DNA of 34,845 nt from the NCBI GenBank assembly GCA_947258515.1, contig CAMYIO010000077.1, forward strand, positions 1 to 34,845, given 5' to 3'. The number at the start of each line of letters is the position of its first letter. The first letter of the stretch is position 1. The position numbers and the translations under genes are program-made. Positions 1-16,620 of this stretch are shown in pieces. The notes beneath the pieces are model-generated. The model was not told where the DNA came from. It searched no databases and was given only the letters and a program-made list of their open reading frames with translations. The DNA is from an uncultured Ectothiorhodospiraceae bacterium. Lineage in GTDB: Bacteria > Pseudomonadota > Gammaproteobacteria > UBA9214.

Positions 1-30
1 TACTTAAAAATCCATGTGGCCCATAAATTG

Positions 31-66
31 GGGCATGTTTGGGCATGTTTGGGCATGTTTGGGCAT
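31..66. repeat. Tandem decamer repeat, 3.6 copies
   Basis: The 10-base unit gggcatgttt is repeated three times without change and followed by a fourth partial copy (gggcat). It lies in gene-free DNA about 200 bases upstream of the protease gene. Short spaced G-rich repeats of this sort can be protein-binding arrays, for example arm-type sites of a tyrosine integrase. The related doublet at about 3085-3106 (gggggcaa twice) near the apparent attachment site makes that idea reasonable, but it is inference. Confidence 0.8.
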
Positions 67-265
67 AGCTTGGTCAACATTTCTTGCCAATTTCCATCAC
101 TCTGCCTGTAAAGCAAAGGCCAAATTCTCCTTTTCTCCTTATACAGACGCCCTAAATCGTAGAAATCACCATCTACCCGGTACGCAATACCGGTTGTATC
201 GTCCCATATTCCAGTTTCTTTTCCGTGTCAGGGAACACCGCTGATGTAGTATCGTTAGTAATATT

Positions 266-1843
266 ATGTATCAGATAAACAATAAAAAAGTAGCATCGCC
301 AACGGCGGACCGCTCTGTAGTCCTGAGAGTATGGCATCTACTGTTGACCTTGTGCCTGTTGTACTTACCGGGAATTGCTACGGCAGATTACCGTTTGATT
401 ATAAGACTACTCGGGCAGACTGGGACAGTCCTCGATACTGCTGCTGTAGAACAGGTCGTCACTGGCTTGAGCGAGCGCACACAATCCAGGCTTGTTCTGG
501 TAAGACAGGTCGGACGGGATGCCCTGCTGCTGGCCGCGCCCGATATCAGCACAGTCACAGAACGGGATGAACTCATCGACCAGTTGCAGGCCGATCCCCA
601 GGTTGATTATGTACGTACCGACCGGCGTGCGCGCATACAGTTTGTGCCGAATGACCCGCAGTATGTCACCCAGTGGAATCTCTACGAGGACTCCGGTGGC
701 ATACGCATGCCATCCGCTTGGGACGTGGAACGTGGCAGCCAAAAAATTGTGACGGCGATTATCGACACTGGCATCCTGCCGCATGCAGAACTCGACTCGG
801 CACGCTTCTTGCCCGGATACGATTTTTTCAGTGACATGTTCAATGATAATGACGGTATCCCTGGCCGTGATGCAAATCCAGCTGATCCAGGTGATGCCAC
901 TTTGGCCGATGAGTGCGGGGGTGGTGGCAGCCCAACGAACAGTTCCTGGCATGGTACCAGCGTTGTCGGTGTGGTCGCCGCCACCACTGACAATGCGCTC
1001 GGTATCGTCGGGATTGACCATAGAGGTCATATCCTGGTTGCACGTGCACTCGGCAAGTGCGGCGGATTTATCTCCGATATTATCGATGCCATGCGCTGGG
1101 CGGCCGGCCTGAAGGTCTTTGGAGTACCGCTAAATCCAAACCCGGCACGGGTTATCAACCTGAGTGCCGGCAGTACCGATGCCTGCTCAGCCTTTGAGCA
1201 GGATGCAATCGACGAAGTGGTCAGCAGTGGTGTTAGTGTTGTCGTTGCGGCTGGCAATGGTGCAGCCGATGTGGATATTACCAGCCCTGCAAACTGCAAC
1301 CGTGTAATCACCGTGGCTGCTACGACCCGCGGCGGTGCGCGTGCCGGTTATTCCAATATCGGCAATCGTGTGGACATCAGCGCACCGGGTGGTGAAGGTG
1401 TCGATGCCATTCCTGTGTTGTATAACACCGGACTGACGGACCCTGGCGATGATGCGATTGCGTATGCATTGGGTACCAGTTTCGCGGCGGCACAGGTTAC
1501 CGGTGTGGCGGCACTGATACTTGCTCATAACTCCGATCTGTCACCAAGGCAGGTTGAGCACATACTGAAATCATCAGCGCGCCCCTTTCCGGATACCAGT
1601 TGTGATACGACTATCTGTGGTGCCGGTATCGTGGATGCGGAAAGAGCCCTTGTAATTGCGGAAAATACGCTGCCAGAGATACCAGCCACTGATACGGTCG
1701 TTAGTAGCGGGGGTGGTGGAGGTGGCAGTGGCGGTGGTTGTACGCTTACGGACGTTCGCCAACCGGACCCGTTGTTTCCAGTACTGCTGGCCTGGGCGCT
1801 GTACCTGCTGGTGCGCATACGTCGACCAAAACATATCGCTTAG
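266..1843 (+). CDS. Secreted S8 (subtilisin-family) serine protease with C-terminal sorting tail
   Basis: A 525-residue extracellular or surface peptidase. Residues 22-40 form a signal peptide ending at an ATA-DY site. Residues 43-121 look like an inhibitor/propeptide domain. The catalytic domain shows Asp167 (IIDTGI), His229 (WHGTSVVG), the oxyanion Asn331 (AAGNG) and Ser405 (GTSFAAAQ), so the triad is complete. Residues 482-491 are nearly all glycine, followed by Cys492, a hydrophobic helix (about 503-516) and a basic end (RIRRPK). That Gly-rich/Cys/helix/Arg layout is the pattern of GlyGly-CTERM-like sorting tails, which intramembrane proteases cut and which may be lipid-modified. The matching processing enzyme is not in the window. 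The start at 266 has a weak ribosome site, but it supplies the signal peptide. The gene stands alone in accessory-looking DNA. Confidence 0.9.
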   Translation: MYQINNKKVASPTADRSVVLRVWHLLLTLCLLYLPGIATADYRLIIRLLGQTGTVLDTAAVEQVVTGLSERTQSRLVLVRQVGRDALLLAAPDISTVTERDELIDQLQADPQVDYVRTDRRARIQFVPNDPQYVTQWNLYEDSGGIRMPSAWDVERGSQKIVTAIIDTGILPHAELDSARFLPGYDFFSDMFNDNDGIPGRDANPADPGDATLADECGGGGSPTNSSWHGTSVVGVVAATTDNALGIVGIDHRGHILVARALGKCGGFISDIIDAMRWAAGLKVFGVPLNPNPARVINLSAGSTDACSAFEQDAIDEVVSSGVSVVVAAGNGAADVDITSPANCNRVITVAATTRGGARAGYSNIGNRVDISAPGGEGVDAIPVLYNTGLTDPGDDAIAYALGTSFAAAQVTGVAALILAHNSDLSPRQVEHILKSSARPFPDTSCDTTICGAGIVDAERALVIAENTLPEIPATDTVVSSGGGGGGSGGGCTLTDVRQPDPLFPVLLAWALYLLVRIRRPKHIA

Positions 1844-2237
1844 TATCTATGAAAGTGCAGAAGTTGGCCGGTTATCCCCCTTGCGTGTCAAAAGAATAAT
1901 CGTTGTTCATAGTCCAACGAAGGGCAAGTAACTGACAGGAAGCGGGCATTCCTGGAGCAAGCAGCTGTATTCTCATCTAAACGCGTGCTATCAACCCGAT
2001 CATTCTTGGACGCAGGCATTGATATATTCAAGGCATTAATAGTTTCTTATGTGCTGAATAAGTATTTTCCACAATACAAATAGTAGTGCGCCATAACTAG
2101 ACTTCTATCCTATAGTCAAAGTAATGCCAGCATTAGCTAAAGTAATGAAGGCGTTTTGACTATTAGGACTCATGAGGTTTCGTGGTTCTGAGTAAAGGGC
2201 ATGAGACTCTATGCGTCTTTTTTGATATCGAATAAAC
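1844..2237. other. Gene-free stretch between protease and small-gene pair
   Basis: About 390 AT-rich bases in which I see no convincing reading frame, RNA gene or terminator. The promoter of the downstream small-gene pair presumably lies in its right part, but no clear -35/-10 pair could be fixed. Confidence 0.5.
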
Positions 2238-2252
2238 AGGAGGAAGGATGCC

Positions 2253-2519
2253 ATGGGACAAGCATTACATAGCATAGAGAACGAACCTGACCATAGTGTT
2301 GAAATCGTTGTGCACATAACCGAGAGCCTGGGAGAACAACGGCGAGAAGATTTGGTTGCCGCTCTGAAAGATAATGGCGGTATCACTACCGCAGAATTCT
2401 GTCCGTTACGCTACCACCTAATGCTGGTCAGGTACGACAGAGAGATGTATTCCTCACAAGATGTGCTAGATCGTGTTAAATCACAAAATGTCGATGCCAG
2501 GCTGATTGGCCCGGTATAG
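2253..2519 (+). CDS. Small protein of unknown function with an HMA-like (ferredoxin-fold) pattern
   Basis: An 88-residue soluble protein. A strong ribosome site, AGGAGG at 2238-2243, is nine bases before the ATG and fixes the start. An earlier ATG at 2248 is out of frame. The order of predicted elements (strand VEIVVHI, helix EQRREDLVAAL, strand ITTAEFC, strand HLMLVRYD, helix SQDVLDRVK, strand DARLIGPV) resembles the beta-alpha-beta-beta-alpha-beta fold of heavy-metal-associated domains. The usual metal-binding CxxC is absent, so metal binding cannot be claimed. The gene is followed within 20 bases by a small membrane-protein gene, and the two probably form an operon closed by the terminator at 2880. 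Confidence 0.7.
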   Translation: MGQALHSIENEPDHSVEIVVHITESLGEQRREDLVAALKDNGGITTAEFCPLRYHLMLVRYDREMYSSQDVLDRVKSQNVDARLIGPV

Positions 2520-2539
2520 GGATGACCCAGGGGGAGATA

Positions 2540-2848
2540 ATGAAAGATACAGACAAGCTTCACAAGCTGTTAACGACCCACAGGGGGCCTGGAGAAATAC
2601 AGGACTGGATATTCTCATTGACCCCTATTGGTGTCGCGTTTGTCTTTTATATTGTTTTCATCATGTCTTCGGGTATTGAACCCAAGGGACTTTTTATTGC
2701 CTATGGTGCAGCAGCTGGTTTTATTGGATTGGAAAGTTACTGGATAGTCCGTGGCTGGCACAATAATCATGCAAGCACAGTCATCATGGGTGCCATTGGT
2801 ATTCTTATTACGATATTTGTACTTGGATTATATATGTCCTTTATGTGA
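2540..2848 (+). CDS. Small three-helix membrane protein, unknown function
   Basis: The ATG at 2540 is preferred over the in-frame ATG at 2522 because an AGGGGGAG ribosome site sits just before it; this gives a protein of 102 residues. After a hydrophilic N-terminus of about 25 residues come three hydrophobic segments: around PIGVAFVFYIVFIM, FIAYGAAAGFIGLESYWIV and VIMGAIGILITIFVLGLYM. I do not recognise a family. It follows the HMA-like gene by about 20 bases and is followed directly by a terminator, so the pair is likely a two-gene operon in the accessory region. Confidence 0.7.
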   Translation: MKDTDKLHKLLTTHRGPGEIQDWIFSLTPIGVAFVFYIVFIMSSGIEPKGLFIAYGAAAGFIGLESYWIVRGWHNNHASTVIMGAIGILITIFVLGLYMSFM

Positions 2849-2879
2849 CGGGACATCAGTACTGATTAGTATTCCTCAC

Positions 2880-2903
2880 GGCGGCCCTTGGGTCGCCTTT
2901 TTT
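2880..2903 (+). terminator. Rho-independent terminator of the small-gene pair
   Basis: The stem GGCGGCC/GGTCGCC has seven pairs including one G-T, a four-base loop and six T residues at 2898-2903. It begins 31 bases after the membrane-protein stop codon. Confidence 0.85.
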
Positions 2904-3150
2904 ATTCGTGCTAAATGTCGTGTTGTGGCCGTTCCAGGAAATACAATTGTCACGACAAGAGAGCCCCGAGGTATGCGGGGAACGTCTTACCTGGCCCTCA
3001 TTCAAGAAGTTCAGGTTAATCACGAACGTTTCAGCAATGGCCATCTCTGGAAGCTATTATTCACTGATAGACAGTGATTAGCTGGGGGCAACTCCGGGGG
3101 CAATTACGAAAGATTCATTTTATTTATATTACAGTCACATATGCTCTGTT

Positions 3151-3173
3151 TTCGGTAGTCGCCGCCTCCACCA
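3151..3173 (+). other. Probable displaced 3' end of a tmRNA (or tRNA-Ala) gene: attachment-site scar
   Basis: The block ends in cgccgcctccacca: seven acceptor-stem bases CGCCTCC with T at the position that makes the G3-U70 pair typical of tmRNA and tRNA-Ala, then discriminator A and CCA. TTCG sits where the T-loop would be, but the T-stem does not pair and no 5' part exists upstream, so this is not a working RNA gene. A terminator follows ten bases later, as is usual behind ssrA. Elements that integrate into the 3' end of such genes leave exactly this displaced end and terminator at the far border. The scar reading is inference. Confidence 0.45.
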
Positions 3174-3182
3174 AACGTAAAG

Positions 3183-3207
3183 GCCACCCAAATAGGGTGG
3201 CTTTTTT
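3183..3207 (+). terminator. Strong Rho-independent terminator
   Basis: A perfect seven-pair stem GCCACCC/GGGTGGC with loop AAATA is followed by six T residues. No protein gene ends just upstream. It follows the CCA end of the tmRNA/tRNA-like block by nine bases, so it probably served that RNA gene. Confidence 0.9.
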
Positions 3208-3559
3208 GTGTAGCTGGTGGATACCAGGACACCTGAACCTGGCCACAATTATTTATCGAAATTTGTCAGAGAATATATCTGGACCCTATATTCGCAAATT
3301 GCACTGACCGCAGTTCCCGCGTCGCAAATTGCAAATAGACAGCCATGGGATTACTGTTTAGAACACGTTACTCATATCAGGCTTAGCCCCCGTTTGCAGG
3401 CCTTTTACGCCCTGGCAGGCGTTGATGCTGATCCTGATGGCCGATTGGCCTGATTATTGCTCCTAAACCTGGCAGCAATTCAAATAGATCAGAAACAGAC
3501 AACCCGTCCAGTGGAGATATTCCATTATAAGACAACTACATCGCTGTCTGACGGGCTGT

Positions 3560-4399
3560 TTGCTTGCACTGCTCCTTGCAAGCAGCAGCCATGCAGAGAT
3601 AACCGGGCAAGCCCTGACCTTCGGGATCGTCCCGCAACAGTCAGCTGCCAAGCTGGCGCGGGTGTGGACACCGCTGCTGGAACATCTCTCGACTCTGACC
3701 GGTCAACGCCTGTTATTCAGAACGGCCCCTAATATTCCAGAGTTCGAACGCCGCCTGGCTAACGGTGAGTACGATCTTGCCTACATGAACCCTTATCACT
3801 ACACCACTTTCCACCGTTCCCCCGGCTACCAGGCATTTGCCAGGGAAAAAGGGAAGCGTCTAAAAGGTATTATCGTGGTGCGCGCAGACAGCCCATACAA
3901 GGACCTGGATGAATTGGCTGACCAGACCCTGGCTTTCCCCTCCCCCGCCGCATTTGCCGCCAGCATTATTACCCGCGCGCAGTTCAGCGGACTCGGAATC
4001 GCTATCACACCCAAATATGTCTCATCTCATGACTCGGTCTATCGATCAGTAGCGGTAGGGCTCTACCCGGCAGGTGGCGGCGTCATGCGTACGCTAAACG
4101 GCCTGGAACCTGAAGTTCGGGAGAAGCTGCGTATCCTGTGGACCTCTGAGCCCTACACGTCGCATGCCATTGCAGCACACCCCCGGGTACCGAGCGACAC
4201 AGTTAACACCGTGTTAACAGCAATGCAGCAACTGGAAAACACTGAACAGGGAAGGCAACTGCTTAGCCAAATAAACTTCAAAGGGATTGTCGCTGCAAGC
4301 GATGCTGAATGGGACGACATCCGCAAGCTGAACATTGACCTGCTTGATGGCCTGGTTGCCAGTCCGGCAACCACAACGGAGGGCAGTCACACACCGTGA
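3560..4399 (+). CDS. PhnD-like periplasmic substrate-binding protein (sensor partner of the adjacent kinase)
   Basis: A periplasmic protein of the phosphate/phosphite/phosphonate-binding family, about 280 residues (usual family length). The family layout is visible: TFGIVPQQSA at the N-terminal lobe, GEYDLAYMNPYHY, the hinge-side stretch SHDSVYRSVAVGL, and AGGGVMRTLNGL. No transporter permease or ATPase gene is near, and the stop codon overlaps the kinase gene (GTGA at 4396), so its job is probably to present a ligand to the kinase. The start is uncertain. The TTG at 3560 cuts the signal peptide short; the frame is open back to 3488, and an ATT at 3524 with GGAG eight bases before it would give a proper signal peptide with basic residues (IIRQLHRCL). 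The ligand is unknown. Confidence 0.85.
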   Translation: MLALLLASSSHAEITGQALTFGIVPQQSAAKLARVWTPLLEHLSTLTGQRLLFRTAPNIPEFERRLANGEYDLAYMNPYHYTTFHRSPGYQAFAREKGKRLKGIIVVRADSPYKDLDELADQTLAFPSPAAFAASIITRAQFSGLGIAITPKYVSSHDSVYRSVAVGLYPAGGGVMRTLNGLEPEVREKLRILWTSEPYTSHAIAAHPRVPSDTVNTVLTAMQQLENTEQGRQLLSQINFKGIVAASDAEWDDIRKLNIDLLDGLVASPATTTEGSHTP

Positions 4400-4863
4400 C
4401 CTTTCGCCAGAAAACTATTTTCGGCGTTGCCGTAATCGAGGCAATCCTGCTGGTTGTATTGATCTGGACAGGCATCAATTATCTGCGCTCGATTAACGAG
4501 TCAGAACTTATCAAACGGGCGGCGGCAACATTGACCCTTCTCTCCCGTGCTTCCCGTGATGCTGTCCTCTCGACTGACATGGCGACATTGCATGATATCG
4601 TCAATGATGCCATTTCGATACCGGAACTTGGCTACGTGCGCATCCTGAATCCGGATGGAGTCATTCTGGCTGAGGCCGGGCCAAACCTTCCGGCACACGG
4701 TATCTTTTCGGCAGATCTGGACTATGCATCCGTAGACGACGGCAGCTTCGACACCGCCATTGATATCAAGGAGAGCAACACTCGCTATGGCCGGCTCGAG
4801 GTTGGAATTTTAACCTCGCACATCGACAACGTTATCAGCGATGCCGGCAGCTCACCAGCCTGA
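4396..4863 (+). CDS. N-terminal sensor fragment of the hybrid histidine kinase (disrupted gene)
   Basis: A 155-residue frame starting at GTG within the upstream stop codon. It has one membrane helix (about residues 8-27) and a periplasmic sensor region up to about residue 145. It stops at 4861 just where a second membrane helix should begin. The HAMP domain continues in another frame (from about 4842: RQLTSLNDASRRI, then GNDELAHTVRAFNQM) straight into the kinase frame beginning at 4962. No frame in this stretch encodes a hydrophobic helix. The simplest reading is an out-of-frame deletion that removed TM2. As it stands this would be a membrane-anchored sensor stub without a kinase. Confidence 0.75.
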   Translation: MTFRQKTIFGVAVIEAILLVVLIWTGINYLRSINESELIKRAAATLTLLSRASRDAVLSTDMATLHDIVNDAISIPELGYVRILNPDGVILAEAGPNLPAHGIFSADLDYASVDDGSFDTAIDIKESNTRYGRLEVGILTSHIDNVISDAGSSPA

Positions 4864-4961
4864 ATGATGCCTCCCGCCGTATAATCAATGGTGAACTGGG
4901 ATATCAACTCCCTGTACAGGGTAATGACGAACTGGCTCATACGGTAAGGGCCTTCAACCAA

Positions 4962-6977
4962 ATGTCATTACACTTGCAGGAAGATGTAAAGCAGCAAGAT
5001 GCCATTATCAAGTCCGCGCTGGACTGTATTATCAACATGGACAATGAAGGCCTTATCACCGAGTTCAACCCTGTTGCAGAAGAGACCTTCGGTTACAGCC
5101 GGAAAGAAGTCATCGGCCGTCCCTTAGTGGACACAATCATTCCACCCGCATCCCGCGAGGCACACAACAAGGGGCTTGAGCACTACCTGGTAACAGGTGA
5201 AACTTCGATTCTGGGTAATCGCATCGAGGTAAAGGCCATGCGCTCGGACAGCACGGAGTTTCCGGTCGAAATGTCCATCAACGTAACCTGGATTGAGAAG
5301 AAACCACTTTTTACCGCCTACCTTCGCGACATTACCGAACGACGCATTCAAGAAGCCGCCATGAGACAGGCAAAGAATCTCGCGGAAGAAGCGGCAGAGG
5401 CGAAATCAAGCTTCCTTGCCAACATGAGCCATGAAATCCGCACACCCATGAATGCCGTACTTGGATTACTTGGCCTGCTGGCGAATGAAGATAATCTGAC
5501 CGCCCAGCAGAAAGCATGGGTTAAAACAGCCCATCAATCAAGCGGCTTACTGCTCAACCTGATCAACAATACCCTGGATTTTTCAAAGATCGATTCCGGG
5601 AAAGTGGAGCTGGATTTTGCAAGCTTCAACCTCCGCTCGCTGATCGACACCACCATCAACATGTTCAGACCCAAAGCCGAATCCAGGGGGATCACCCTGT
5701 CCAGCTGTCTGGGGAAGACCTTGCCAGCCTTCATCGAAGGCGATAGCGGACGTCTGCGGCAGATACTGATCAACCTGGTTGGCAATGCCATCAAATTTAC
5801 TCATGAAGGCACGATCAATCTGGATATCACACTGACTGGAGACAGCGAACACCGGTTCATTCGCTTCGCAGTATCTGACACCGGGGTCGGCATCCCGGCC
5901 GGGGATCTCGATAAATTGTTTACCGAATTTACCCAACTGACCCCGGGCGGCATCACTCACTCCGAGGGAACAGGGCTCGGCCTGGCTATCTCCAGGCAAC
6001 TGGTTACTCTGATGGACGGACAAATCGGCGTGGAAAGCGAGCCGGACAAGGGCAGTTGCTTCTGGTTTGAAATTCCCCTTGTTGAGGGCAAACACTGCAA
6101 CGAAAAAACGCCGGGGACCGGGCCGTCCATGGACAGAATAGCGCCGGTTAGCGGGAAGAAATATACCCAGGCATCAAGACCCGCAGGGCACGGGGCTCGT
6201 ATTCTTCTCGCCGAGGACAGCCCCGCCAACCAGATGGTGGCGCTGTCCATGCTGAAGGACACCGGTTACCACATTGATACCGTGATCAATGGGAAGGAAG
6301 CCGTGGAATCAATGAGAAACCTGCCCTACGACCTGGTGCTCATGGACATCTCCATGCCGGAAATGAATGGAATGGAAGCGACCGCTGTAATTCGCAAGCT
6401 GGCTGGTGACAAGGGTCGCGTGCCTGTCATCGCCATGACAGCTCATGCCATAAAGGGAGACCGTGAAAAGTTCCTTGCTTCAGGCATGGACGATTACATT
6501 TCCAAGCCGGTCGACAAGCAACTGTTGCTGGATATCCTTGATAAATGGTTGCCCGAAGACCCTGCAGCCACCCGGGTCGGAAACACAGGCGGGCCGGCAA
6601 TGCGAGACCTGCAGATGCTCGACATCAATACACTGGAACAGCTTGCACGCGACACCAGCCCCGATTTAATGCCCCACATGCTTGCCGCCTTCCGCAAGGA
6701 AACGGTCAAACGCATACACGTCATATCACAGTCACTGTCTCCACTCGCAGCGGAACAGCTGGAGCGTGAATCACACAGCCTGAAATCCAGCGCCGGCACG
6801 TTTGGCGCCTTCGACCTGCAACAGCTGGCAAGATGTGTGGAACCAGGTGATAGCGGAACTGGACCACTACCTGGTGATGACACAACAACAAGAACCGCTA
6901 CACGCTGGCACCGAGACATAAACTTAACGGTTTGTATTGCCTTGTTTTACATTCCATTGCTCAATATATATCACTGA
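4962..6977 (+). CDS. Hybrid sensor histidine kinase, PAS-HisKA-HATPase-REC-Hpt (5' and 3' ends frameshifted)
   Basis: The kinase half of the disrupted gene: PAS (about residues 11-125), HisKA with His157 (SHEIRTP), HATPase with Asn275 (NLVGNAIKFT), G1 DTGVG 306-310 and G2 GTGLGL 336-341, a receiver with Asp462 (LMDISMPEMNG) and Lys515, and an Hpt domain with His605 (SHSLKSS). The ATG at 4962 has no ribosome site and lies inside the HAMP segment, which is open upstream in the same frame, so the true start is the GTG at 4396. Near 6838 the frame breaks again. The natural Hpt end is read in another frame from about 6838 (WNQVIAELDHYLVM) and stops at 6921, while this frame runs on into nonsense to 6977. 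The receiver and Hpt would feed a phosphorelay to the next gene. It is probably a pseudogene unless the breaks are assembly errors. Confidence 0.85.
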   Translation: MSLHLQEDVKQQDAIIKSALDCIINMDNEGLITEFNPVAEETFGYSRKEVIGRPLVDTIIPPASREAHNKGLEHYLVTGETSILGNRIEVKAMRSDSTEFPVEMSINVTWIEKKPLFTAYLRDITERRIQEAAMRQAKNLAEEAAEAKSSFLANMSHEIRTPMNAVLGLLGLLANEDNLTAQQKAWVKTAHQSSGLLLNLINNTLDFSKIDSGKVELDFASFNLRSLIDTTINMFRPKAESRGITLSSCLGKTLPAFIEGDSGRLRQILINLVGNAIKFTHEGTINLDITLTGDSEHRFIRFAVSDTGVGIPAGDLDKLFTEFTQLTPGGITHSEGTGLGLAISRQLVTLMDGQIGVESEPDKGSCFWFEIPLVEGKHCNEKTPGTGPSMDRIAPVSGKKYTQASRPAGHGARILLAEDSPANQMVALSMLKDTGYHIDTVINGKEAVESMRNLPYDLVLMDISMPEMNGMEATAVIRKLAGDKGRVPVIAMTAHAIKGDREKFLASGMDDYISKPVDKQLLLDILDKWLPEDPAATRVGNTGGPAMRDLQMLDINTLEQLARDTSPDLMPHMLAAFRKETVKRIHVISQSLSPLAAEQLERESHSLKSSAGTFGAFDLQQLARCVEPGDSGTGPLPGDDTTTRTATRWHRDINLTVCIALFYIPLLNIYH

Positions 6978-7010
6978 TAATATCAACGCTTATCTGGTAC
7001 TGAAGTACAC

Positions 7011-8423
7011 ATGAAAAACACAGCTGCGAAAATATTGCTTGTTGAAGACAGCCACTCTGTCGCTGTTGTCTACCAGGAGTACCTGAACGAGCGAGGCTAC
7101 CAGGTGACGCATGTCGACACCGGGAAAGCCGCACTCGAGGCAATTGAAACAGATATCCCCAATGCCATCCTGCTGGACCTGCAACTGCCTGATATGAACG
7201 GCAAGCTTATTCTCGAGGATGTTGTTGCACGCGCCCTGCCCACTGCCGTTGTGGTCATCACCGCACATGGATCAGTGGATATTGCGGTCGAAATCATGCA
7301 GGCAGGCGCCCTGGATTTCATCGAAAAACCGTTCACAGCCGACCGGCTTTTCGTGACTCTCGACAATGCGCTCAAGCGGCAGGATCTGGAAGAAGTCGTT
7401 GACCTGTTACGCCGCAACCACTTTCATGGTTTCGTTGGTGCTTCGCTGCCGATGCAATCGGTCTACCAGATCATCTCCAGTGCTTCCACCAGCAAGGCGA
7501 CCGTGTTCATAACCGGGGAAAGCGGCACCGGCAAGGAAGTCTGCGCCCAGGCCATTCACGACGAAAGTCCGCGAAGGAACAAAGCGTTTATCGCACTCAA
7601 TTGCGCGGCCATTCCCCGCGAGTTGATGGAAAGCGAAATCTTCGGCCATGTAAAAGGCGCCTTCACCGGGGCAGTAACGGCACGGGAAGGCGCGGCAGCA
7701 CGTTCTGATGGCGGGACCCTGTTCCTTGACGAAGTCTGTGAAATGAACCTGGAATTGCAGAGCAAGCTGCTGCGTTTCATCCAGACAGCCAGCTTTCAGA
7801 AGGTTGGTGGCAGCAAGCTCCAGGAGGTCGACGTGCGTTTTATATGCGCAACCAACAAGAACCCCATGGAGGAAGTCAAGGCTGGACGTTTCCGTGAAGA
7901 CCTGTACTACCGGCTGCATGTAATCCCGATCAACCTGCCCGCACTGCGAAATCGCGAAGAGGATATTCTGCTTATCGCCCGGTATTTCCTGACTCGCTAC
8001 AGCACTGAGGAAAACAAGGGTTTTGTGCGTTTTTCACCCGAAACCGAAGCACTACTGCTGGATTACCAATGGCCAGGAAATGTTCGCCAGCTACAGAACG
8101 TGATCCGCAATATTGTAGTCTTGAGTGACTGTGACACAGTTACTACCTCCATGCTGCCATCACCACTTGACCAACTGGTAGCCACCACTGGCGGCAATTT
8201 TCCGGATCACCCCGGTACTACAGGAAATCCCACGAACGCCCGGGAGGCTGCTGTTCAGTCCGCGCCAATCCGTCCCTTGTGGCAGATTGAGAAACAGGCC
8301 ATTGAACAGGCCATTGAACAGTGTGACGGCAATATCCCCAAGGCCGCAGCCCTGCTGAATATCAGCCCTTCCACGATCTACCGCAAACGACAGCACTGGG
8401 AAAACCAGCTCCCCTCTCTCTGA
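7011..8423 (+). CDS. Sigma54-dependent response regulator (LuxO/NtrC type)
   Basis: A complete 470-residue activator. The receiver domain (1-125) has Asp56 (LLDLQLPDMNG), Thr84 and Lys106. The AAA+ domain (about 140-380) has Walker A GESGTGKE (169-176), the sigma54-contact loop GAFTGA (216-221), Walker B GGTLFLDEV (234-242) and the arginine-bearing stretch AGRFREDLYYRL. A Fis-type helix-turn-helix lies at about 440-463 (NIPKAAALLNISPSTIYRKR). On phosphorylation such proteins drive sigma54 promoters by ATP hydrolysis. It follows the hybrid kinase by about 90 bases and precedes a matching -24/-12 promoter at 8512, so the downstream receiver-phosphatase is a likely target. Sequence style is closest to LuxO, as far as can be judged by eye. 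Confidence 0.95.
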   Translation: MKNTAAKILLVEDSHSVAVVYQEYLNERGYQVTHVDTGKAALEAIETDIPNAILLDLQLPDMNGKLILEDVVARALPTAVVVITAHGSVDIAVEIMQAGALDFIEKPFTADRLFVTLDNALKRQDLEEVVDLLRRNHFHGFVGASLPMQSVYQIISSASTSKATVFITGESGTGKEVCAQAIHDESPRRNKAFIALNCAAIPRELMESEIFGHVKGAFTGAVTAREGAAARSDGGTLFLDEVCEMNLELQSKLLRFIQTASFQKVGGSKLQEVDVRFICATNKNPMEEVKAGRFREDLYYRLHVIPINLPALRNREEDILLIARYFLTRYSTEENKGFVRFSPETEALLLDYQWPGNVRQLQNVIRNIVVLSDCDTVTTSMLPSPLDQLVATTGGNFPDHPGTTGNPTNAREAAVQSAPIRPLWQIEKQAIEQAIEQCDGNIPKAAALLNISPSTIYRKRQHWENQLPSL

Positions 8424-8511
8424 CCGGCTGACGGCCCGCTTGCCAGGGCATGCCGCCGGCACCGTCCGGCAGATCCGGCTGTGAGAATCATAAATCTGGT
8501 TTTGTCTTCGT

Positions 8512-8526
8512 TGGCACGCTTCCTGC
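8512..8526 (+). promoter_or_regulatory. Sigma54 (-24/-12) promoter of the receiver-phosphatase gene
   Basis: TGGCACGCTTCCTGC matches the sigma54 consensus TGGCACG-N4-TTGC at all but one conserved base. GG (8513-8514) and GC (8525-8526) are separated by exactly ten bases. Transcription would start near 8538, about 30 bases before the ATG at 8567, which has its own GGAGAAG ribosome site. The gene upstream encodes a sigma54 activator. Confidence 0.8.
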
Positions 8527-8566
8527 CTGCAACCATGGCAACGAATACTAGCGGAGAAGTACTGAC

Positions 8567-9757
8567 ATGAAGATCATGGTCGTTGATGATGCACAGGATT
8601 ACCGGGAATCCCTGACTGAACTGTTCCGCCTGTGGGGTCACGTGGTTGTGGAAGCCGGTAACGGCGCAGAAGCACTGACACATCTCGCCGACCCGGATCT
8701 GCACATTGTCGTCAGTGACTGGATGATGCCGGAAATGGACGGCATTGACTTGTGCCGGGCCATCCGTAGCGCCTGTCGGGATGATTACGTCTACGTGATA
8801 CTGCTAACCGGCAAGACCTCCAGGGAAGACATAATACACGGTCTGAATGCAGGTGCCGATGAAGTGCTCTGCAAACCATTCGATTTCCAGATTTTGCTTG
8901 GCCGCATTCAGGTGGCGGAACGCATCATTGGCATGACCATGCGCCTGGTGGAACAGAACAGGCAGCTGATGGATGCATCAAAAGATCTCCCCGGAAACTG
9001 CAACCATGGCACGCCCGTACTTTCCCCTGCCGCCCGCATAAAGGAACAGCTGCTACCCTGCAACAAGGCCTCTGCACTCCCTATAAATACAGCCTGGATG
9101 TTCAATCCATCCGCAACAGTAACGGGTGACCTCTTTAATTTCATTGACCTTGGAGAGGAAGTCCTCGGGTTTTATCAGCTGGACATATCAGGACAGGGAA
9201 TACCGGTCGCAATGCTGTCCATTTGTCTGTGCAATACACTTACCTCATGCCAGGCCTTCGACAATAACAAGTACTTGCGCTCGGATCCCTCTACCGTGGT
9301 CAGCAATATCAACCGGCAACTTGTTGTCCCTGGGCAGAAATGCAATCAGTACATAACCATGGTATACGGCACGGTTAACAAGCATAGCGGCGAAGGCAGA
9401 CTCTGCATCGCCGGCCACCCGCCGCCGTTCACCGTCTTGCCTGACGGCGGAATCAACCGTATGAAACCAGGCGGCATGCCAGCCGGCATGTTCGCTGACA
9501 GCGGTTATTCAGACATATCGTTCCAGCTTCGCCCCGGAGAACGACTGGTGCTTTACTCTGACGGGATAACGAATTGCGTGAATGAGAAAAACCTGCCGTT
9601 TGGTCTCGAACAATTCCAGGAACTGCTGGCTGATACGGCAACCGCCCCCCTGAACTCCATGACGGAGACACTGGAACAAAGACTCGGTGAATGGCGGGGT
9701 TCGGCCGTACCGGGGGATGACATGTCCATGCTGGTGCTGGAACGGCCACATGCATGA
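8567..9757 (+). CDS. Response regulator with PP2C-type (SpoIIE/RsbU) phosphatase output
   Basis: A 396-residue cytoplasmic protein. The receiver (1-120) has Asp51 (VVSDWMMPEMDG), Thr81 and Lys103. A linker of about 55 residues leads to a PP2C-like phosphatase (about 175-393) whose metal-binding aspartates are present: Asp188 (VTGDLF), Asp206 (LDISGQG), Asp332 (YSDGITN) and Asp384/385 (GDDMSM). Proteins of this design dephosphorylate an anti-sigma-factor antagonist (STAS protein) in partner-switching systems. No STAS or anti-sigma kinase gene is adjacent, so the target must lie elsewhere. The sigma54 promoter at 8512 links its expression to the upstream activator. Confidence 0.93.
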   Translation: MKIMVVDDAQDYRESLTELFRLWGHVVVEAGNGAEALTHLADPDLHIVVSDWMMPEMDGIDLCRAIRSACRDDYVYVILLTGKTSREDIIHGLNAGADEVLCKPFDFQILLGRIQVAERIIGMTMRLVEQNRQLMDASKDLPGNCNHGTPVLSPAARIKEQLLPCNKASALPINTAWMFNPSATVTGDLFNFIDLGEEVLGFYQLDISGQGIPVAMLSICLCNTLTSCQAFDNNKYLRSDPSTVVSNINRQLVVPGQKCNQYITMVYGTVNKHSGEGRLCIAGHPPPFTVLPDGGINRMKPGGMPAGMFADSGYSDISFQLRPGERLVLYSDGITNCVNEKNLPFGLEQFQELLADTATAPLNSMTETLEQRLGEWRGSAVPGDDMSMLVLERPHA

Positions 9758-10396
9758 AAAAGCACTACCGCAGAGAACCTGCCCCGGAATGCAATTTCAA
9801 AATGCGAATCAGAACTGCATTTCGCAATTAAAACTTGCCTCGGTTAAGCGGACAACATGCGGTTAGCGAACGACATCATTAGCTGAAAGGCAGAAATCCA
9901 TCGAAGAAGTCATTCTCGGGAATGAAGGGAAGTAGGTGTTGCTCCTTATCATCAGATGTGCAACTTTCCCCCACAATTGTAAATATTAATTGCATGGACC
10001 AGTACAGACTACCCTGGCACTCAGACAGGGACGCCTTGTCCTTTTTTGCCAAACCTGCGATACAGGGAAGCAGTGTAAGGCGTGTGGACATGTCGCCTAA
10101 CCTGGGTTACCCGGCATTTCTGTCCTGCCCTGGAAAGAATAGTAAGTTGCATGCTAATCGCGTGCTTTCTGCCAGTTCCTGCTATTCCGAAACCATCAAC
10201 GAACAGCAGTCTCATACTATAACCAGTCACCTGAATGATGCGGCTTGCCAGGCGTGTTTATTAATCTGCTGAGCATTCCTGAAGGAACCCGAGCCGTTCA
10301 TGGCATAGCGAGACCTTATGGCAAGGTTCGAGTATTATCCTGTGTCTGGACAGAACGTCCACTGACTGAATCGACTCCCGGAGTAGTTATCCAGCT
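9758..10396. other. Gene-free stretch between the signalling cassette and glgP
   Basis: About 640 bases. The longest frame, 9922-10272, shows no ribosome site, no recognisable motif and an odd composition, so I do not call it a gene. The only structure is a weak terminator-like hairpin at 10027-10047. The glgP promoter presumably lies in the right part, but I could not fix it. Confidence 0.5.
10027..10047 (+). terminator. Possible weak terminator hairpin
   Basis: The stem AGGGAC/GTCCTT (six pairs, one G-T) with a five-base loop runs into a T-run at 10042-10047. It lies 270 bases after the nearest stop codon, so it may end a long 3' untranslated region, an unseen small RNA, or be chance. Confidence 0.3.
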
Positions 10397-12901
10397 ATGC
10401 AGAATTACCTACCCAATGCATTCATCCCTCATCCGGAACTGACCGAATTGCCGCCCCTGGCAATGGACAAAAAGGCTATTGATGAGGATTTCCTTCGCTA
10501 CTACAACCGCACCCTGGGCAGGGACAAACAGCACTGCACGAGTCACTACCTGTATGAAGCGCTCGCCTACACCGTGCGTGACAGGCTGATGGAACGCTGG
10601 AAAGAAACCCGGTTTGCCTACGAAGAGAAGGATGCGCGGCGCACCTGCTACCTGTCGCTGGAGTTCCTGATGGGCAGGGCCCTCAGCAATGCCATGCTCA
10701 ACCTCGGCATAACCGATGCGGTGACCCGTGTCCTGTACGACTACGGCATCAAACTGGAAGAGGTCGAGGCCGCCGAGCACGATGCCGGTCTCGGCAACGG
10801 CGGTTTGGGTCGCCTGGTCGCCTGTTTCCTCGACAGCTGTGCAACGCTGCAGTTACCGGTGCTGGGTTACGGTCTGCGTTACGAGTACGGCATGTTCCGC
10901 CAGGAACTTGTCAACGGCCATCAGATCGAGGAACCGGATCACTGGTTGCGCGACGGCAATCCCTGGGAACTGGAGCGACCAGAGTACACCCAGCGCATCC
11001 ACTTTGGCGGCCACACCGAGTTCTATAGTGATGAAAACGGCGAGCTGCGTGTGCGCTGGGCGGATACGCATGATGTGCTGGCGGTGCCCTATGACATTCC
11101 GGTGCCGGGTTTCCGCAACGACACGGTGAACAGTCTGCGCCTGTGGAAGTCTACCGCCACCGACGAGTTCGACCTCGATGAATTCAACGCCGGCGACTAT
11201 GCCGAGGCGGTGGAGTCCAAGAACGATGCCGAACACATCACCATGGTGCTCTACCCCAACGATGCCAGCGAGAATGGCAAGGAACTGCGCCTGCGTCAGC
11301 AGTATTTCCTGGCTTCCGCGAGCCTCAAGGATGTGCTGCGTCGCTGGTTACGGCTGCACGACAGGAATTTCGCCGCACTGGCTGACAAGCACTGCTTCCA
11401 GCTCAACGACACCCATCCGAGTATCGCTGTGGCCGAGTTGATGCGATTGCTGGTTGATGAGCATCGCGTCGACTGGGACAGTGCCTGGGATATTGTCGGC
11501 CGTTCCATGGCCTACACCAACCACACGCTGTTACCCGAAGCGCTGGAGAAATGGCCGGTACAGATGTTCCAGAATTTGCTGCCACGGCTGCTGGAGATTA
11601 TCTACGAAATCAACGCCCGCTTCCTCGTCCAGGTGTCACAACGCTGGCCCGGCGATACCGATCGGCTGCGGCGAGTATCAATTATCGAGGAAGGCGATAC
11701 ACCCATGGTACGCATGGCGTATCTGGCCATCGTCGGCAGCTACTCGGTAAACGGCGTCGCCGAGCTGCATTCGCGGCTGCTCAAGGAGGGCTTGTTCCGC
11801 GATTTCTTCGAGCTCTGGCCGAACAAGTTCAACAACAAGACCAATGGCGTTACCCAGCGGCGCTGGCTGGCCCTGTGCAACCCGGGGCTGTCCAATCTCA
11901 TCAGTGAAAGTATCGGTGACAGCTGGATGACCCGGCTGGACCAGCTCAGGAAACTGGCGCCGCACGCAGACGATAAGGCGTTCCAGCAGCGCTGGCGCGA
12001 GATCAAGCTGCTTAACAAGCAGCATCTTGCCGACATGGTCGAGCGTGACTGCGGCGTGAAGATAGCAACTTCCGCATTGTTCGATGTGCAGGTAAAGCGT
12101 ATTCACGAGTACAAGCGGCAGCTGTTGAACGCGCTGCACGTCATTCACCTGTACAACCGTATCAAGCGCGGCGATATCGCCAGCTGGACGCAGCGCTGCG
12201 TACTGGTCGGCGGCAAGGCGGCGCCGGGTTACGCGATGGCCAAGAACATCATCAAGCTGATCAGCAACATTGCCAATGTCATCAATACAGATCCCGACGT
12301 GGGCGACCTGCTCAAAGTGGTGTTTCTGCCCAACTACCGCGTATCGGCGATGGAAGTCATCTGTCCGGGTGCGGACCTCTCCGAGCAGATATCCACCGCC
12401 GGCAAGGAGGCTTCCGGCACCGGCAATATGAAATTCATGATGAACGGTGCCATCACCATTGGCACGCTGGATGGCGCCAATATCGAAATCCTGGAAGAAG
12501 TCGGTAAGGAAAACTTCTTCCTGTTCGGCCTCAGCGCCGAACAGGTCACCGGGACCCGCCGCGATTATCGCCCGTGGGATATCATTGCTGCCGACGAGGA
12601 CCTGAATGCCGTCATGCAGTTATTGAAAAGCGGGTTCTTCAACCAGTTCGAAAAAAACCTGTTCAACGGGATAATCGACTCGATTACCAGCCCCCATGAT
12701 CCCTGGCTGACGGCGGCGGACTTCCGCAGTTTCGTCGATACCCAGGAACTTGTCGCCAGGGCCTACCGCGACCAGCAACGCTGGACGCGCATGAGCATCC
12801 TCAACACGGCGAACAGTGGCAAGTTTTCGACCGACCGGACCATCCTCGACTACAACAATGAAATATGGCGCCTGGCGCCCGTGAAACCGCTGCCATTATA
12901 A
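10397..12901 (+). CDS. glgP: Glycogen/starch/alpha-glucan phosphorylase
   Basis: An 834-residue GT35 phosphorylase of usual length that releases glucose-1-phosphate from alpha-1,4-glucan ends using phosphate and pyridoxal phosphate. Visible are the N-terminal landmarks TCYLSLEFLMGRALSNAM and GLGNGGLGRLVACFLDS, the stretch VKRIHEYKRQLLNALHVIH, and EASGTGNMKFMMNGA, in which Lys679 is the cofactor-binding lysine. The frame is clean and complete. The start at 10397 lacks a strong ribosome site; a second in-frame ATG at 10463 is possible. It stands alone: no other glycogen gene is in the window. A bidirectional terminator follows eight bases after the stop codon. Confidence 0.97.
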   Translation: MQNYLPNAFIPHPELTELPPLAMDKKAIDEDFLRYYNRTLGRDKQHCTSHYLYEALAYTVRDRLMERWKETRFAYEEKDARRTCYLSLEFLMGRALSNAMLNLGITDAVTRVLYDYGIKLEEVEAAEHDAGLGNGGLGRLVACFLDSCATLQLPVLGYGLRYEYGMFRQELVNGHQIEEPDHWLRDGNPWELERPEYTQRIHFGGHTEFYSDENGELRVRWADTHDVLAVPYDIPVPGFRNDTVNSLRLWKSTATDEFDLDEFNAGDYAEAVESKNDAEHITMVLYPNDASENGKELRLRQQYFLASASLKDVLRRWLRLHDRNFAALADKHCFQLNDTHPSIAVAELMRLLVDEHRVDWDSAWDIVGRSMAYTNHTLLPEALEKWPVQMFQNLLPRLLEIIYEINARFLVQVSQRWPGDTDRLRRVSIIEEGDTPMVRMAYLAIVGSYSVNGVAELHSRLLKEGLFRDFFELWPNKFNNKTNGVTQRRWLALCNPGLSNLISESIGDSWMTRLDQLRKLAPHADDKAFQQRWREIKLLNKQHLADMVERDCGVKIATSALFDVQVKRIHEYKRQLLNALHVIHLYNRIKRGDIASWTQRCVLVGGKAAPGYAMAKNIIKLISNIANVINTDPDVGDLLKVVFLPNYRVSAMEVICPGADLSEQISTAGKEASGTGNMKFMMNGAITIGTLDGANIEILEEVGKENFFLFGLSAEQVTGTRRDYRPWDIIAADEDLNAVMQLLKSGFFNQFEKNLFNGIIDSITSPHDPWLTAADFRSFVDTQELVARAYRDQQRWTRMSILNTANSGKFSTDRTILDYNNEIWRLAPVKPLPL

Positions 12902-12903
12902 GT

Positions 12904-12936
12904 AAAAAAGCCACCCCCGGGAGTGGCTGTTTCTTT
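12904..12936. terminator. Bidirectional terminator after glgP
   Basis: The stem GCCAC/GTGGC with the inner CCC/GGG pairing (12910-12927) is flanked by an A-run at 12904-12909 and a T-rich stretch after it. It serves glgP on the plus strand. On the minus strand it is followed by six T residues, so it would also end a transcript coming from the right. Confidence 0.8.
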
Positions 12937-13363
12937 GTATGACAATCGATTCTGAATTGGTTACAGGGGCACGAGTTCGGTAATCGGCGTTGCGTTCTTC
13001 ACATCGACCCCTCCTGCATGAAAATGTTTGTGATTGTATTTCCAACAGCACGGACTACACGCCTGGCAGGCCCGGACGGGAAGGATAAACACATACTGCC
13101 CGCCTATCCAGCGGACTGACCACATGCCTGAAACTGAACCCGCAATCAATCATGGTCCCGCGCGGGAACACGCCTCACCCGTCCGAACAGCCTGTCCTGC
13201 TCACGGGCTCCGGTAGCCACACCGGTATTGAGCGAGAGCACGGCGACAAGTCCTCCGTTCAGCTTTAGTTCATCTACCCTGTTCTATTCTATAGCCATGG
13301 TGAAGAACTTACAGATGGCACGGCATGCCGGTGGAATATCCAAACGAGCAGAGGAGAGCAGCA
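12937..13363. other. Intergenic stretch, possibly holding a minus-strand small gene
   Basis: About 430 bases. Apart from the uncertain minus-strand frame 12961-13125 I see no gene. A TGGCACGG at 13317 is not a sigma54 site because the -12 spacing is wrong. Confidence 0.45.
12961..13125 (-). CDS. Doubtful small cysteine-rich frame
   Basis: A minus-strand frame of about 54 residues from an ATG at 13125 (a longer version starts at 13149), with a cysteine cluster (RACQACSPCC), KYNHKHFHAGG and the tail NATPITELVPL. I know no such family and the ribosome site is poor. Its only support is that the terminator at 12904-12936 has a full T-run for the minus strand, implying a minus-strand transcript here. 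It may be a remnant or the region may encode a small RNA. Confidence 0.25.
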   Translation of the reverse strand: MWSVRWIGGQYVFILPVRACQACSPCCWKYNHKHFHAGGVDVKNATPITELVPL

Positions 13364-13618
13364 ATGTACGCAAAAATAAATACTTCCAGAACTGCCTCAT
13401 TAACAGGCTTACGTTACGAATACAGAGAATGGTTATATGCGAATGACCTCCCTAAAATGTCAGCAGAAAACCTGCTACAGGAGGAACACCTCACTAGTGA
13501 ACAACGGGTATACCTGAAGTCATTTATCGTACGCTGGGTATCTACACCGGTAAACCAGGAGGCTGAAATCGAAGGCCTGGCCAGACCTGGTGGGTGTCAG
13601 TCCCTGATTCAGGATTAA
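13364..13618 (+). CDS. Small hypothetical protein
   Basis: An 84-residue protein. The ATG at 13364 is preferred because GAGGAG lies just before it; the frame can be extended upstream to 13325 without a ribosome site. The sequence is mostly charged and helical (LRYEYREWLYAND, SAENLLQEEHLTSEQRVYLKSFIVRWV) with no signal peptide or membrane segment. I do not recognise a family. Its stop codon overlaps that of the convergent gene by four bases. Confidence 0.55.
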   Translation: MYAKINTSRTASLTGLRYEYREWLYANDLPKMSAENLLQEEHLTSEQRVYLKSFIVRWVSTPVNQEAEIEGLARPGGCQSLIQD

Positions 13619-14109
13619 ACGCATTCATCCGTCTTCGGGTATTTCTCCCGTACACTGCGAATTTTCTCGTCCACCTCGAGTTGTTTGGCATCGTTCCCCT
13701 GACGCGCCTGGTACGCAGCCTCCAGTTGTTCCCCTACACTCGGATACTCCCTCCGCCTCATGGCGGCATATTTTTCCTCGTGATGGACATCCGAGATTTC
13801 CTGCAGGGCGGAATTGATTTCTGTATCGCCAGGCCGGGGTGTGTCAGCCATCCATTCGGCGATATAAGGCTCCTGTTCCGGTGAATCGTGCCTGATGACA
13901 TAGTCAACGCCTGCTGTGAGATTCGGATTCAGCATGTGAATGGCACGGCAAAGCGTACGTGCACGCTCATCGTGCCCGACGAGACTCTGTTGTTGTGCAA
14001 CCAGCAAGATGGCATCTTTCGTTCTCCGTGAATTCTTCCACAGAATGTATATAAAGGCGCATACAACTATCAGTACCACAATAACAATGTTAGTGATTCC
14101 CTTGTCCAT
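13615..14109 (-). CDS. Membrane-anchored protein with a phage-tail-like YPSxGxQL motif, unknown function
   Basis: The ATG at 14109 has GGAGGAAG at good distance, giving 164 residues; the frame can be extended to 14169 without such support. One N-terminal membrane helix (about residues 6-24, ITNIVIVVLIVVCAFIYILW) is followed by a soluble domain. The C-terminal part contains MRRREYPSVGEQLEAAYQA, which resembles a short motif of phage tail and tail-assembly proteins (YPxIGDQLDALxxA). The rest shows no phage similarity I can see, so that link is weak. It lies about 50 bases downstream of the Rap1a-like gene on the same strand and is probably co-transcribed. Confidence 0.65.
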   Translation of the reverse strand: MDKGITNIVIVVLIVVCAFIYILWKNSRRTKDAILLVAQQQSLVGHDERARTLCRAIHMLNPNLTAGVDYVIRHDSPEQEPYIAEWMADTPRPGDTEINSALQEISDVHHEEKYAAMRRREYPSVGEQLEAAYQARQGNDAKQLEVDEKIRSVREKYPKTDECV

Positions 14110-14158
14110 GATGTGTTCTTCCTCCGGTGATTGGATTGCGTATAGTGTAGCAGGCGTG

Positions 14159-14503
14159 CTACCTGCCATCCTTACACGGGAACGTAGCTCGCATTGCCCT
14201 GATTACCAGGTTGGGAGCGTACAGACCCAGCATATCCGGGTGATCGCGCAGATATATAATAGTGATGTTAATTATCTCCCTTTTGGTTACTTCGGGAGGA
14301 AAACAAAACAGTGCGTGACTCGTATCTATCACCCCCCCGATATAGCCAGCGCAGAAACTGTCAGGCGAGGCTACACAATGTTGCATTAGATCGTCTCCGG
14401 TTGTCAGGTTTGCCTGGACGATTCCAACCATTGAAACAGCGAGGACTGCGGCGACAATAAGATTTGCCCCCCCTTTGAATAACGATTTGCTATGTCTCTT
14501 CAT
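14159..14503 (-). CDS. Secreted Rap1a/Tai-like domain protein
   Basis: The ATG at 14503 has AAGG eight bases before it and gives a clean signal peptide (MKRHSKSLFKGG, a hydrophobic core, then VQA-NL); upstream starts would spoil it. The mature protein of about 83 residues has the pattern of the Rap1a/Tai immunity family: a Cys in LMQHCVAS, FCAGYIGGVIDTSHALFCFP, a helix, YLRDHPDMLGLYAPNLVIRAM and a final FPC. Four cysteines could make two disulfides in the periplasm. Tai members protect against amidase effectors of type VI secretion, but many Rap1a-domain proteins are orphans, and no effector gene is visible nearby. The family call is from memory of the pattern. Confidence 0.7.
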   Translation of the reverse strand: MKRHSKSLFKGGANLIVAAVLAVSMVGIVQANLTTGDDLMQHCVASPDSFCAGYIGGVIDTSHALFCFPPEVTKREIINITIIYLRDHPDMLGLYAPNLVIRAMRATFPCKDGR

Positions 14504-14827
14504 TCGCATGCCTTGTTTGTATATGGTTAATATGCGAAACACTAAACAAATCTGTGTAACCAAACGTTGATACAGGTCAACAAACCGGCTGGCCGCACCA
14601 AAGCATGGCATGTGTCCCAGGTCAGAAGGTGATCAAAACAAGTACGCCTTCAAGACACCGTCAGCAGGCTCATACTTGCCCATTATTTAATGATGAAGTG
14701 ACGCATAATCTCTATCCCAAACTGCCTGGACCGTCGCGTGAGGTAAATGACACGATTCACCAGCGCCCATGAACGACAGCAGTTACTTGCCATACGTTGA
14801 ACAATCGCCTGACAAACCAACACTACC

Positions 14828-15958
14828 CTAGCGCTTCATTATCCAGACGTCCTTCAACCCCAGCTTCTCCATGGCGGTATCGGCATAGCTCCGGGCCTCC
14901 CCCGCTGTTGAAAAACCGGTTATCTGGACGCGCCAGTATTGCTTGCCTTTCACGGTGACTTGCTGCTGTTGAGTTTGGATATCGCTGGACCGGGCCTTTT
15001 CCTCCAGGCGGTCTGCATCGGTATCGGAAGCAGTGATCTCCCGGGTATTTACCTCACTGGATTTCGGATGGGGAATCAAACCAGTGAGCCTCTCGACACT
15101 CTCATTTGGATGGGACCGCAACCCCGCGGCCTTGCTCGTCTGCATCGTTTCTTCAGATTCCGGCACACCCATTCGAATATCACCTGTCGTTCCGGCTGAC
15201 TTCGCCCACCAAACCAGGACAACGATTGCCGCACCCACAGCAATCCACCCGAAGAACATTGACATATTGCGACTTAGAGCGGGTTTCCGGGAGGTCATGT
15301 GGTATTTTAGCTCATCCACTATCGACTCGACCGCACGCGCGGCTGCCATGATTTCCGGTGGCTTGGGAAAGTTTTCCAATTCCGAATCACTGATATCTCG
15401 TTTGCCTGTCAGATTATCGTCTACATCGTTTCTGTCTGTATGACCCATAGCTTTATAAACAAAGAAGCTTAACGCGAATACCATCGTGCCATTGCCGGGA
15501 AATGACTCACCAAAAAGCGACTCGCATTGAGAGTAGACTGATCGCCTGGATTGCAGGGTGCTCGTCATTTGCCTGGCATTCCTCATAAAGGCATCCGCTG
15601 GCGCAGTTACGTCAAGCACAGCACTGGCGTAATCAGTAACAGCAATTCGTGACACCTCAGCCAGAACCGTATCTCTTCGGGCCACACCGAGCTGTTTGAA
15701 TGCCTGCTGATGAACGAGGTGGAGAAGCAGGTAAACTATCTCTGCGCCTGCATCTGCAGTAAGCTTTTTGTCCGGAGCCAGTGCAGCCAGAACGATTTTT
15801 TGCGCCAGGGTTCGATAGACGTGTTCCAGCCTGCGTTTGCCAAACACAGGGAATAAGCGCGTTTTTTCTCCCGACAGGTATGTTGAATAGTCCGCGCAGT
15901 ATTCAGTTACGTGGTCATTCCGGTTACCACGATCTGCAGCAGGATATTTTTCAGCCAA
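14828..15958 (-). CDS. SPOR-domain membrane protein, unknown function (start unclear)
   Basis: A 376-residue frame. Residues 1-220 form a mostly helical, cytoplasmic-looking region of unknown family, a membrane helix lies at about 235-252 (FFGWIAVGAAIVVLVWW), then a polar linker, and a SPOR-like domain ends the protein (about 338-376, YWRVQITGFSTAGEARSYAD). SPOR domains bind glycan strands lacking stem peptides, often at division sites. The only start is a TTG at 15958 with no ribosome site, and the next in-frame Met is residue 125. A short ATG frame (15907-16038) runs into this one in another phase, so the real N-terminus may be joined by a frameshift. Confidence 0.7.
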   Translation of the reverse strand: MAEKYPAADRGNRNDHVTEYCADYSTYLSGEKTRLFPVFGKRRLEHVYRTLAQKIVLAALAPDKKLTADAGAEIVYLLLHLVHQQAFKQLGVARRDTVLAEVSRIAVTDYASAVLDVTAPADAFMRNARQMTSTLQSRRSVYSQCESLFGESFPGNGTMVFALSFFVYKAMGHTDRNDVDDNLTGKRDISDSELENFPKPPEIMAAARAVESIVDELKYHMTSRKPALSRNMSMFFGWIAVGAAIVVLVWWAKSAGTTGDIRMGVPESEETMQTSKAAGLRSHPNESVERLTGLIPHPKSSEVNTREITASDTDADRLEEKARSSDIQTQQQQVTVKGKQYWRVQITGFSTAGEARSYADTAMEKLGLKDVWIMKR

Positions 15959-16594: not shown

Positions 16595-16620
16595 CTTGAA
16601 ATACAGCGGCATGCCCCTAT
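16595..16620 (+). promoter_or_regulatory. Sigma32 heat-shock promoter of the Hsp20 gene
   Basis: The -35 element CTTGAAA (16595-16601) matches the sigma32 consensus fully. After a 12-base spacer, CCCCTAT (16614-16620) differs by one inserted or changed base from CCCCATnT. It lies about 45 bases upstream of the Hsp20 start, which fits the gene's function. Confidence 0.75.

Follow-up and report, generated by a model that had tools for sequence, protein, structure and literature searches.

The window analysed here, the complete 34,845-nt contig C77 of a draft genome (G000; 269 contigs, 3.59 Mb, 97.9% complete), very probably holds at 3084-3173 the attR of an element inserted at the ssrA 3' end by a P4-type (Arm-DNA-bind_3) tyrosine integrase. 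The displaced ssrA tail, the terminator behind it, a repeat pair shared with a relative and downstream synteny with the ssrA locus are all present in the sequence. The insertion is of a well-known kind, being, apart from its arm-site motif, an ordinary tDNA integration. As set out in one survey (PMC4383910), a tyrosine integrase that targets a tRNA or tmRNA gene makes that gene whole again with the copy carried by the element, and a displaced fragment remains at the opposite end; the tmRNA gene is described there as the most enriched integration target.

By this route, an Arm-DNA-bind_3 integrase would have bound arm sites, i.e. a pair of GGGGGCAA sites at the right end and further copies close to the integrase gene at the opposite end, and would have carried out recombination between the ssrA tail of the element and that of the chromosome. 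The element's copy would have rebuilt a complete ssrA at the far left end, where the integrase would also be encoded, and the 14-nt tail of the host gene, together with the terminator behind it, would have been pushed to the right end (3160-3205). The element would thus lie left of the core, and the old 3' flank of ssrA right of it. The features are as follows.

1-3083, no strand assigned: predicted right-hand portion of the element, the remainder of which, with the integrase, would lie past the contig end (from attR geometry and G+C)
266-1843, forward: putative cargo, subtilisin-like S8 protease of 525 aa (PF00082, E 7.7e-42)
2253-2519, forward: putative cargo, 88-aa protein from a multicopy family characteristic of the host's bacterial family (homologues in 29/57 genomes)
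2522-2848, forward: putative cargo, 108-aa small protein, membrane-like by sequence (in G004 and G002, homologues lie close to the 88-aa gene)
3084-3103, forward: two putative arm-type integrase sites GGGGGCAA in direct repeat, at 3084 and 3096 (motif common to G027)
3160-3173, forward: attR core, the displaced last 14 nt of ssrA, comprising the end of the T stem, the acceptor strand and ACCA (exact ssrA 3'-end match)
3178-3205, forward: intrinsic terminator of the original ssrA flank (folding; position compared with 20 ssrA loci)
16667-31342, forward: conserved block of HSP20, DUF938, Rrf2, EpmA, EpmB, GGDEF/EAL and other genes, found 3' of intact ssrA in relatives (tblastn)

The ssrA tail and its terminator

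The sequence CGCCGCCTCCACCA stands at 3160-3173 with A+T-rich DNA directly 5' of it. In a tmRNA-family search that took in 30 genomes, G000 among them, full-length ssrA scored over the cut-off in 20, and CGCCGCCTCCACCA is the exact 3' end in 15 of the 20 full-length ssrA genes of relatives, including five of the six from the same genus (G003, G004, G005, G007 and G008; G001 has a variant). In genuine ssrA genes of the relatives the 14-mer is preceded by GATTCC, as against GGTAGT in the window, so identity to ssrA ends after 14 nt. Within the window ARAGORN found no tRNA or tmRNA gene and no Rfam family matched. No open reading frame of at least 80 aa covers 3160-3173 and, in the terms of the Islander criterion, the fragment overlaps no conserved protein domain.

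The acceptor strand, with its G-U-compatible T, resembles that of tRNA-Ala, and the fragment might on that ground be taken for a tRNA-Ala 3' end instead. This is scarcely credible, in that the 14-mer occurs in no tRNA of the G000 assembly, including its two observed tRNA-Ala genes, and is present in ssrA of relatives, and that the downstream synteny is that of ssrA. By its sequence, 3160-3173 can be assigned to the displaced 3' end of ssrA rather than to that of a tRNA-Ala gene, because same-genus ssrA genes end in these 14 nt and the tRNA-Ala genes seen do not; the identity is to the ssrA 3' end of congeners, the host's own ssrA not being assembled. The original prediction had described a 14-mer with CCA, no RNA gene 5' of it and a terminator nine bases on, with all of which ARAGORN, Rfam and folding agree; the displaced tmRNA or tRNA 3' end that it proposed can now be narrowed to ssrA through the 14/14 match to congeners, from which the observed tRNA-Ala genes differ.

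By itself the 14-mer proves little. G000 has two copies of it in 3.59 Mb, the second inside a TPR-type coding frame on C132, and it is found in coding genes of several relatives also, as would be expected if a 14-mer of coding composition merely happened to precede an ordinary terminator. Against such a coincidence, which is very improbable, 11 of the 15 non-ssrA copies in the genomes compared have no terminator behind them. One more has a poor and late one. A good terminator follows the remaining three, which are the end of a duplicate ssrA, an ssrA 3' end that has been displaced, and a 14-mer lying 159 bp downstream of an ssrA. Nor does GGGGCAA occur within 150 nt 5' of 12 scanned non-ssrA copies, or of the second copy in G005, by contrast with two occurrences at the window and two at the displaced tail of G027. 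The arm doublet, the position and the synteny all agree with ssrA, and together the 14-mer, terminator and doublet go well beyond chance.

Two of the additional copies merit description in their own right. The second ssrA of G013 (L123, about 10783-11079; G013:C1:2435782-2436078), 297 nt long, is 98% identical to the first, from which it is about 1.07 Mb distant; its 5' part falls within an N run and it has its own terminator. In G005 (L116, G005:C354:2262-2275) the second 14-nt tail, 159 bp behind the true ssrA end, has a strong terminator and no arm sites, and is perhaps the scar of a lost element.

The terminator behind the tail has a G+C stem, GCCACCC and GGGTGGC around an AAATA loop, that starts at 3183, nine bases past CCA, and is followed by a T run; the extended stem comprises 11 pairs and begins 5 nt after CCA. 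Its predicted folding energy is -20.5 kcal/mol (z -5.1), with none of 200 shuffles equally good. A terminator was detected by scanning behind 15 of the 20 ssrA genes of relatives, at 31-33 nt past CCA in the three whose ssrA is immediately followed by an integrase (G003, G014 and G027) and at 3-13 nt past CCA in the other 12. The window terminator, at +5, therefore fits an original ssrA flank that was moved to attR. A contrary case is the displaced tail of G027, where the terminator is at +33. That tail (L130, G027:C128:885-898) may belong to the interior of a tandem array, for the terminator behind it closely resembles the one located between ssrA and integrase.

The repeat doublet and its counterparts

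The doublet that the original prediction had noticed just upstream of the tail, GGGGGCAACTCCGGGGGCAA, could be located at 3084-3103, its arms lying 76 and 64 nt 5' of the core. Simply as a direct repeat it is unremarkable, repeats of equal length occurring in 52 of 1000 Markov sequences and in 26 of 496 stretches of the window; its significance comes from the sharing of the motif and not from the repetition as such. The pattern GGGGCAA-N(2-12)-GGGGCAA, with an expectation of 0.01 occurrences per shuffled window, was found at three distinct places in 904 kb of window and relatives' sequence, overlaps counted: in the window, between ssrA and integrase in G027, and 5' of the displaced ssrA tail in G027. 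The arm-to-core distances are likewise close, at 76/64 nt in the window, 82/71 nt in G027 and, with other letters, 83/71 nt at CP4-57 of Escherichia coli K-12. The doublet is the strongest support for the integration reading.

More widely, GGGGYAAC is present in the 250 nt that follow ssrA at all four loci with a P4-type integrase (G003, G014, G027 and L183) and at none of 17 without one, although L183 does not count independently because the motif pattern itself retrieved it. This locus was one of two matches to an attL-type pattern in IMG/VR. It has a complete ssrA, GGGGCAAC at three places and the N-terminus of a P4-type integrase, similar to the Arm-DNA-bind_3 domain present in the G003 and G027 integrases. 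The other match, L184, has no tmRNA and was set aside as a chance match. An attR-type pattern gave no matches in IMG/VR. As judged from their sequence and placement, the GGGGYAAC sites may be the arm sites to which the integrase binds. It appears somewhat probable that a direct doublet of GGGGYAAC type, about 64-82 nt 5' of the ssrA tail, marks a single ssrA-specific clade of Arm-DNA-bind_3 integrases that extends over several bacterial families.

Among the papers listed in searches of the open-access literature, none was found to report the shared arm-site motif, and the string GGGGGCAAC together with 'integrase' retrieved only an E. coli toxin paper. The new point, a modest one, is the shared arm-site signature, all else being well known. 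The results suggest that arm sites could reveal the type of integrase from a single orphan end in a metagenome-assembled genome (MAG), which the usual two-ended search would miss; if so, the doublet signature would assign orphan island ends to an integrase type with no integrase in sight.

The doublet bears also on whether the contig is an assembly chimaera, in which unrelated DNA was joined at the ssrA tail. A draft MAG of 269 contigs lends itself to such an error; the doublet, however, lies just left of the join at the distance expected of a true attR, so that a chimaera is highly improbable.

Among the closest known systems is CP4-57, a cryptic prophage of E. coli K-12 with the integrase IntA, which, like the element proposed here, is located in the ssrA 3' end. 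At its right end is an annotated 14-nt pseudogene, psaA, with an arm-like direct doublet of 12-nt spacing 83/71 nt 5' of it. By contrast with the window, the CP4-57 arms read AGGACCAAC/GGGACCAAA and the K-12 fragment is shorter by one T; the window for its part differs in that the left end and integrase are unseen. The tail in the window retains all 14 nt, including the T missing from the CP4-57 fragment, and excision would therefore be expected to leave a sound, whole ssrA. CP4So of Shewanella oneidensis similarly has a P4-like integrase and lies in ssrA between two homologous att sites, but its excision deletes a U of SsrA (PMC5148205), by contrast with the complete displaced tail of the window.

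The G027 element (contigs C8 and C128, which would be the two ends of one element) has an Arm-DNA-bind_3 integrase behind ssrA, a displaced ssrA tail and GGGGCAA arm sites at both ends; it differs from the window in the element-type terminator of its displaced tail. As with the tDNA islands found by Islander, the island end in the window can be recognised by a displaced 3' piece of a tDNA that lies outside coding domains; unlike those islands, the window has a single visible end, with the intact gene and integrase missing from the assembly, and the filters set out in the Islander paper would for that reason reject the element (PMC4383910).

The two flanks of the junction

The right flank was compared by tblastn of 29 window proteins with the relatives' loci, 12 of which bear ssrA and some of which are short. 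In G001, G007, G008 and G017 the counterpart of the HSP20 gene (16667) is found downstream of an intact ssrA and on its strand, at 1.2, 2.4, 8.7 and 2.4 kb from the ssrA end, respectively. In G001 and G017 (L114 and L128) a long gene order is conserved as far as about 28-30 kb of the window, which is the end of the compared stretch. In G007 and G008 (L112 and L113) the first two genes of the block alone were found; the G008 contig stops after them, and G007 has no further match despite about 5 kb more sequence. No synteny was seen at the eight other ssrA loci (G003, G004, G005, G013, G014, G016, G018 and G027), several of which are short. The presence of the block 3' of ssrA in four relatives indicates that the window represents the downstream side of an ssrA locus.

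In the window, 13.5 kb separates the ssrA tail from the HSP20 gene. The genes at 3.5-16.6 kb (encoding a phosphonate-binding-like protein, a kinase, a sigma-54 regulator, a SpoIIE-type regulator, a glycogen phosphorylase and a SPOR protein) did not turn up in the ssrA-HSP20 interval of the relatives checked. The original prediction had placed an element to the left and native DNA from 3208 onward. The junction it implied is borne out by the arm sites, terminator position and synteny, but the native character of all that follows is put in doubt by these genes, which are not beside ssrA in relatives. It may be that 3174-16660 is an older insertion with no visible end. An older tandem element between 3174 and 16667 was considered and rejected, no second ssrA tail being present there at three or fewer mismatches. 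The gene block at 3560-8423 has homologues in G010, in G008 and, as two copies, in G004, in each case on contigs other than that of ssrA.

On the left, the G+C content is 44-48% in 1-kb windows from 1.5 to 3.5 kb, compared with 49-60% rightward to 20 kb. At the left contig edge (31-66) are 3.6 perfect tandem copies of GGGCATGTTT. The visible left part contains three genes of ordinary families and no integrase or transfer genes, and the DNA of 1-3200 matched no phage or plasmid. The S8 protease has a JDVT-CTERM match (NF033191, 29.5 bits against a cut-off of 27); its relatives in genome_contigs amount to one distant Cloacimonadota locus, and none was found in viral_contigs. The 88-aa protein, with no Pfam family over the cut-off, has five additional matches within G000, and its family is present in all 23 searched genomes of the host's bacterial family, with up to seven matches per genome. 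A terminator lies at about 2880-2903, behind the 108-aa gene. The three genes at 266-2848 would be cargo of the element; the notion that they are element-specific was abandoned, as homologues of the protease and of the 88-aa and 108-aa proteins sit at other places in relatives, and the genes alone thus do not prove an element.

The left end and the integrases

The contig ends 3.1 kb left of the tail, and the assembly was searched for the element's other end. Rfam RF00023 gave 11 matches in G000, none over the cut-off, and blastn with congener ssrA likewise found no intact gene; eight of the 11 matches were identified, seven coinciding with tRNA genes and one with a displaced tRNA-Ser end on C4. 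For htpX, which stands 5' of ssrA in relatives, G000 has no more than distant homologues, and the gene is not in the bin, and the region upstream of ssrA in G003 matches no G000 DNA. On these results, the attL contig is probably absent from the bin. No tyrosine integrase is encoded at 1-3160. There are 14 integrase matches elsewhere in the G000 bin, none linked to ssrA; compared with the ssrA-linked integrases of G003 and G027, those of G000 gave weak matches alone, on C193 and C176, the latter contig beginning inside an integrase that is a candidate only.

Among the relatives, an integrase directly behind ssrA is present in G003, G014 and G027, so that ssrA is a repeated landing site in this group, which adds to the case for an integration here. 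The G027 integrase has 409 aa, that of G014 is cut by the contig, and G003 has a remnant of 131 aa; the G003 and G014 integrases are 44 and 49% identical to that of G027.

A rival reading is that the window holds only a dead scar or old tandem remnant. This would be a sub-case of the integration reading, the site still being an attR; the element would since have decayed or been rearranged, and what lies to the left would be chromosome brought there by rearrangement, not living cargo. It is consistent with the exclusively chromosomal-type genes to the left, with the G003 remnant, and with the ssrA end of G000 not being seen. It is nonetheless unlikely, if worth keeping in mind, given that nothing is missing from the core or from either arm site, as opposed to the damaged core of K-12. 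On the preferred reading, that of attR of an element integrated in ssrA, one end of a mobile element would be fixed in a draft genome.

G000 contains within one contig a complete element, of about 5.2 kb, of the same design, at the C4 tRNA-Ser(CGA) site (loci L107, G000:C4:42000-50000, and L004), which likewise speaks for the integration reading. There, an integrase stands next to the tRNA gene (C4:44833-44923), and some 5.2 kb further along an imperfect duplicate of the tRNA-Ser 3' part ends at C4:50166. At L108 (G000:C68:2-936), a tRNA-Phe gene with an adjoining integrase, cut by the contig start, is likely a further element end.
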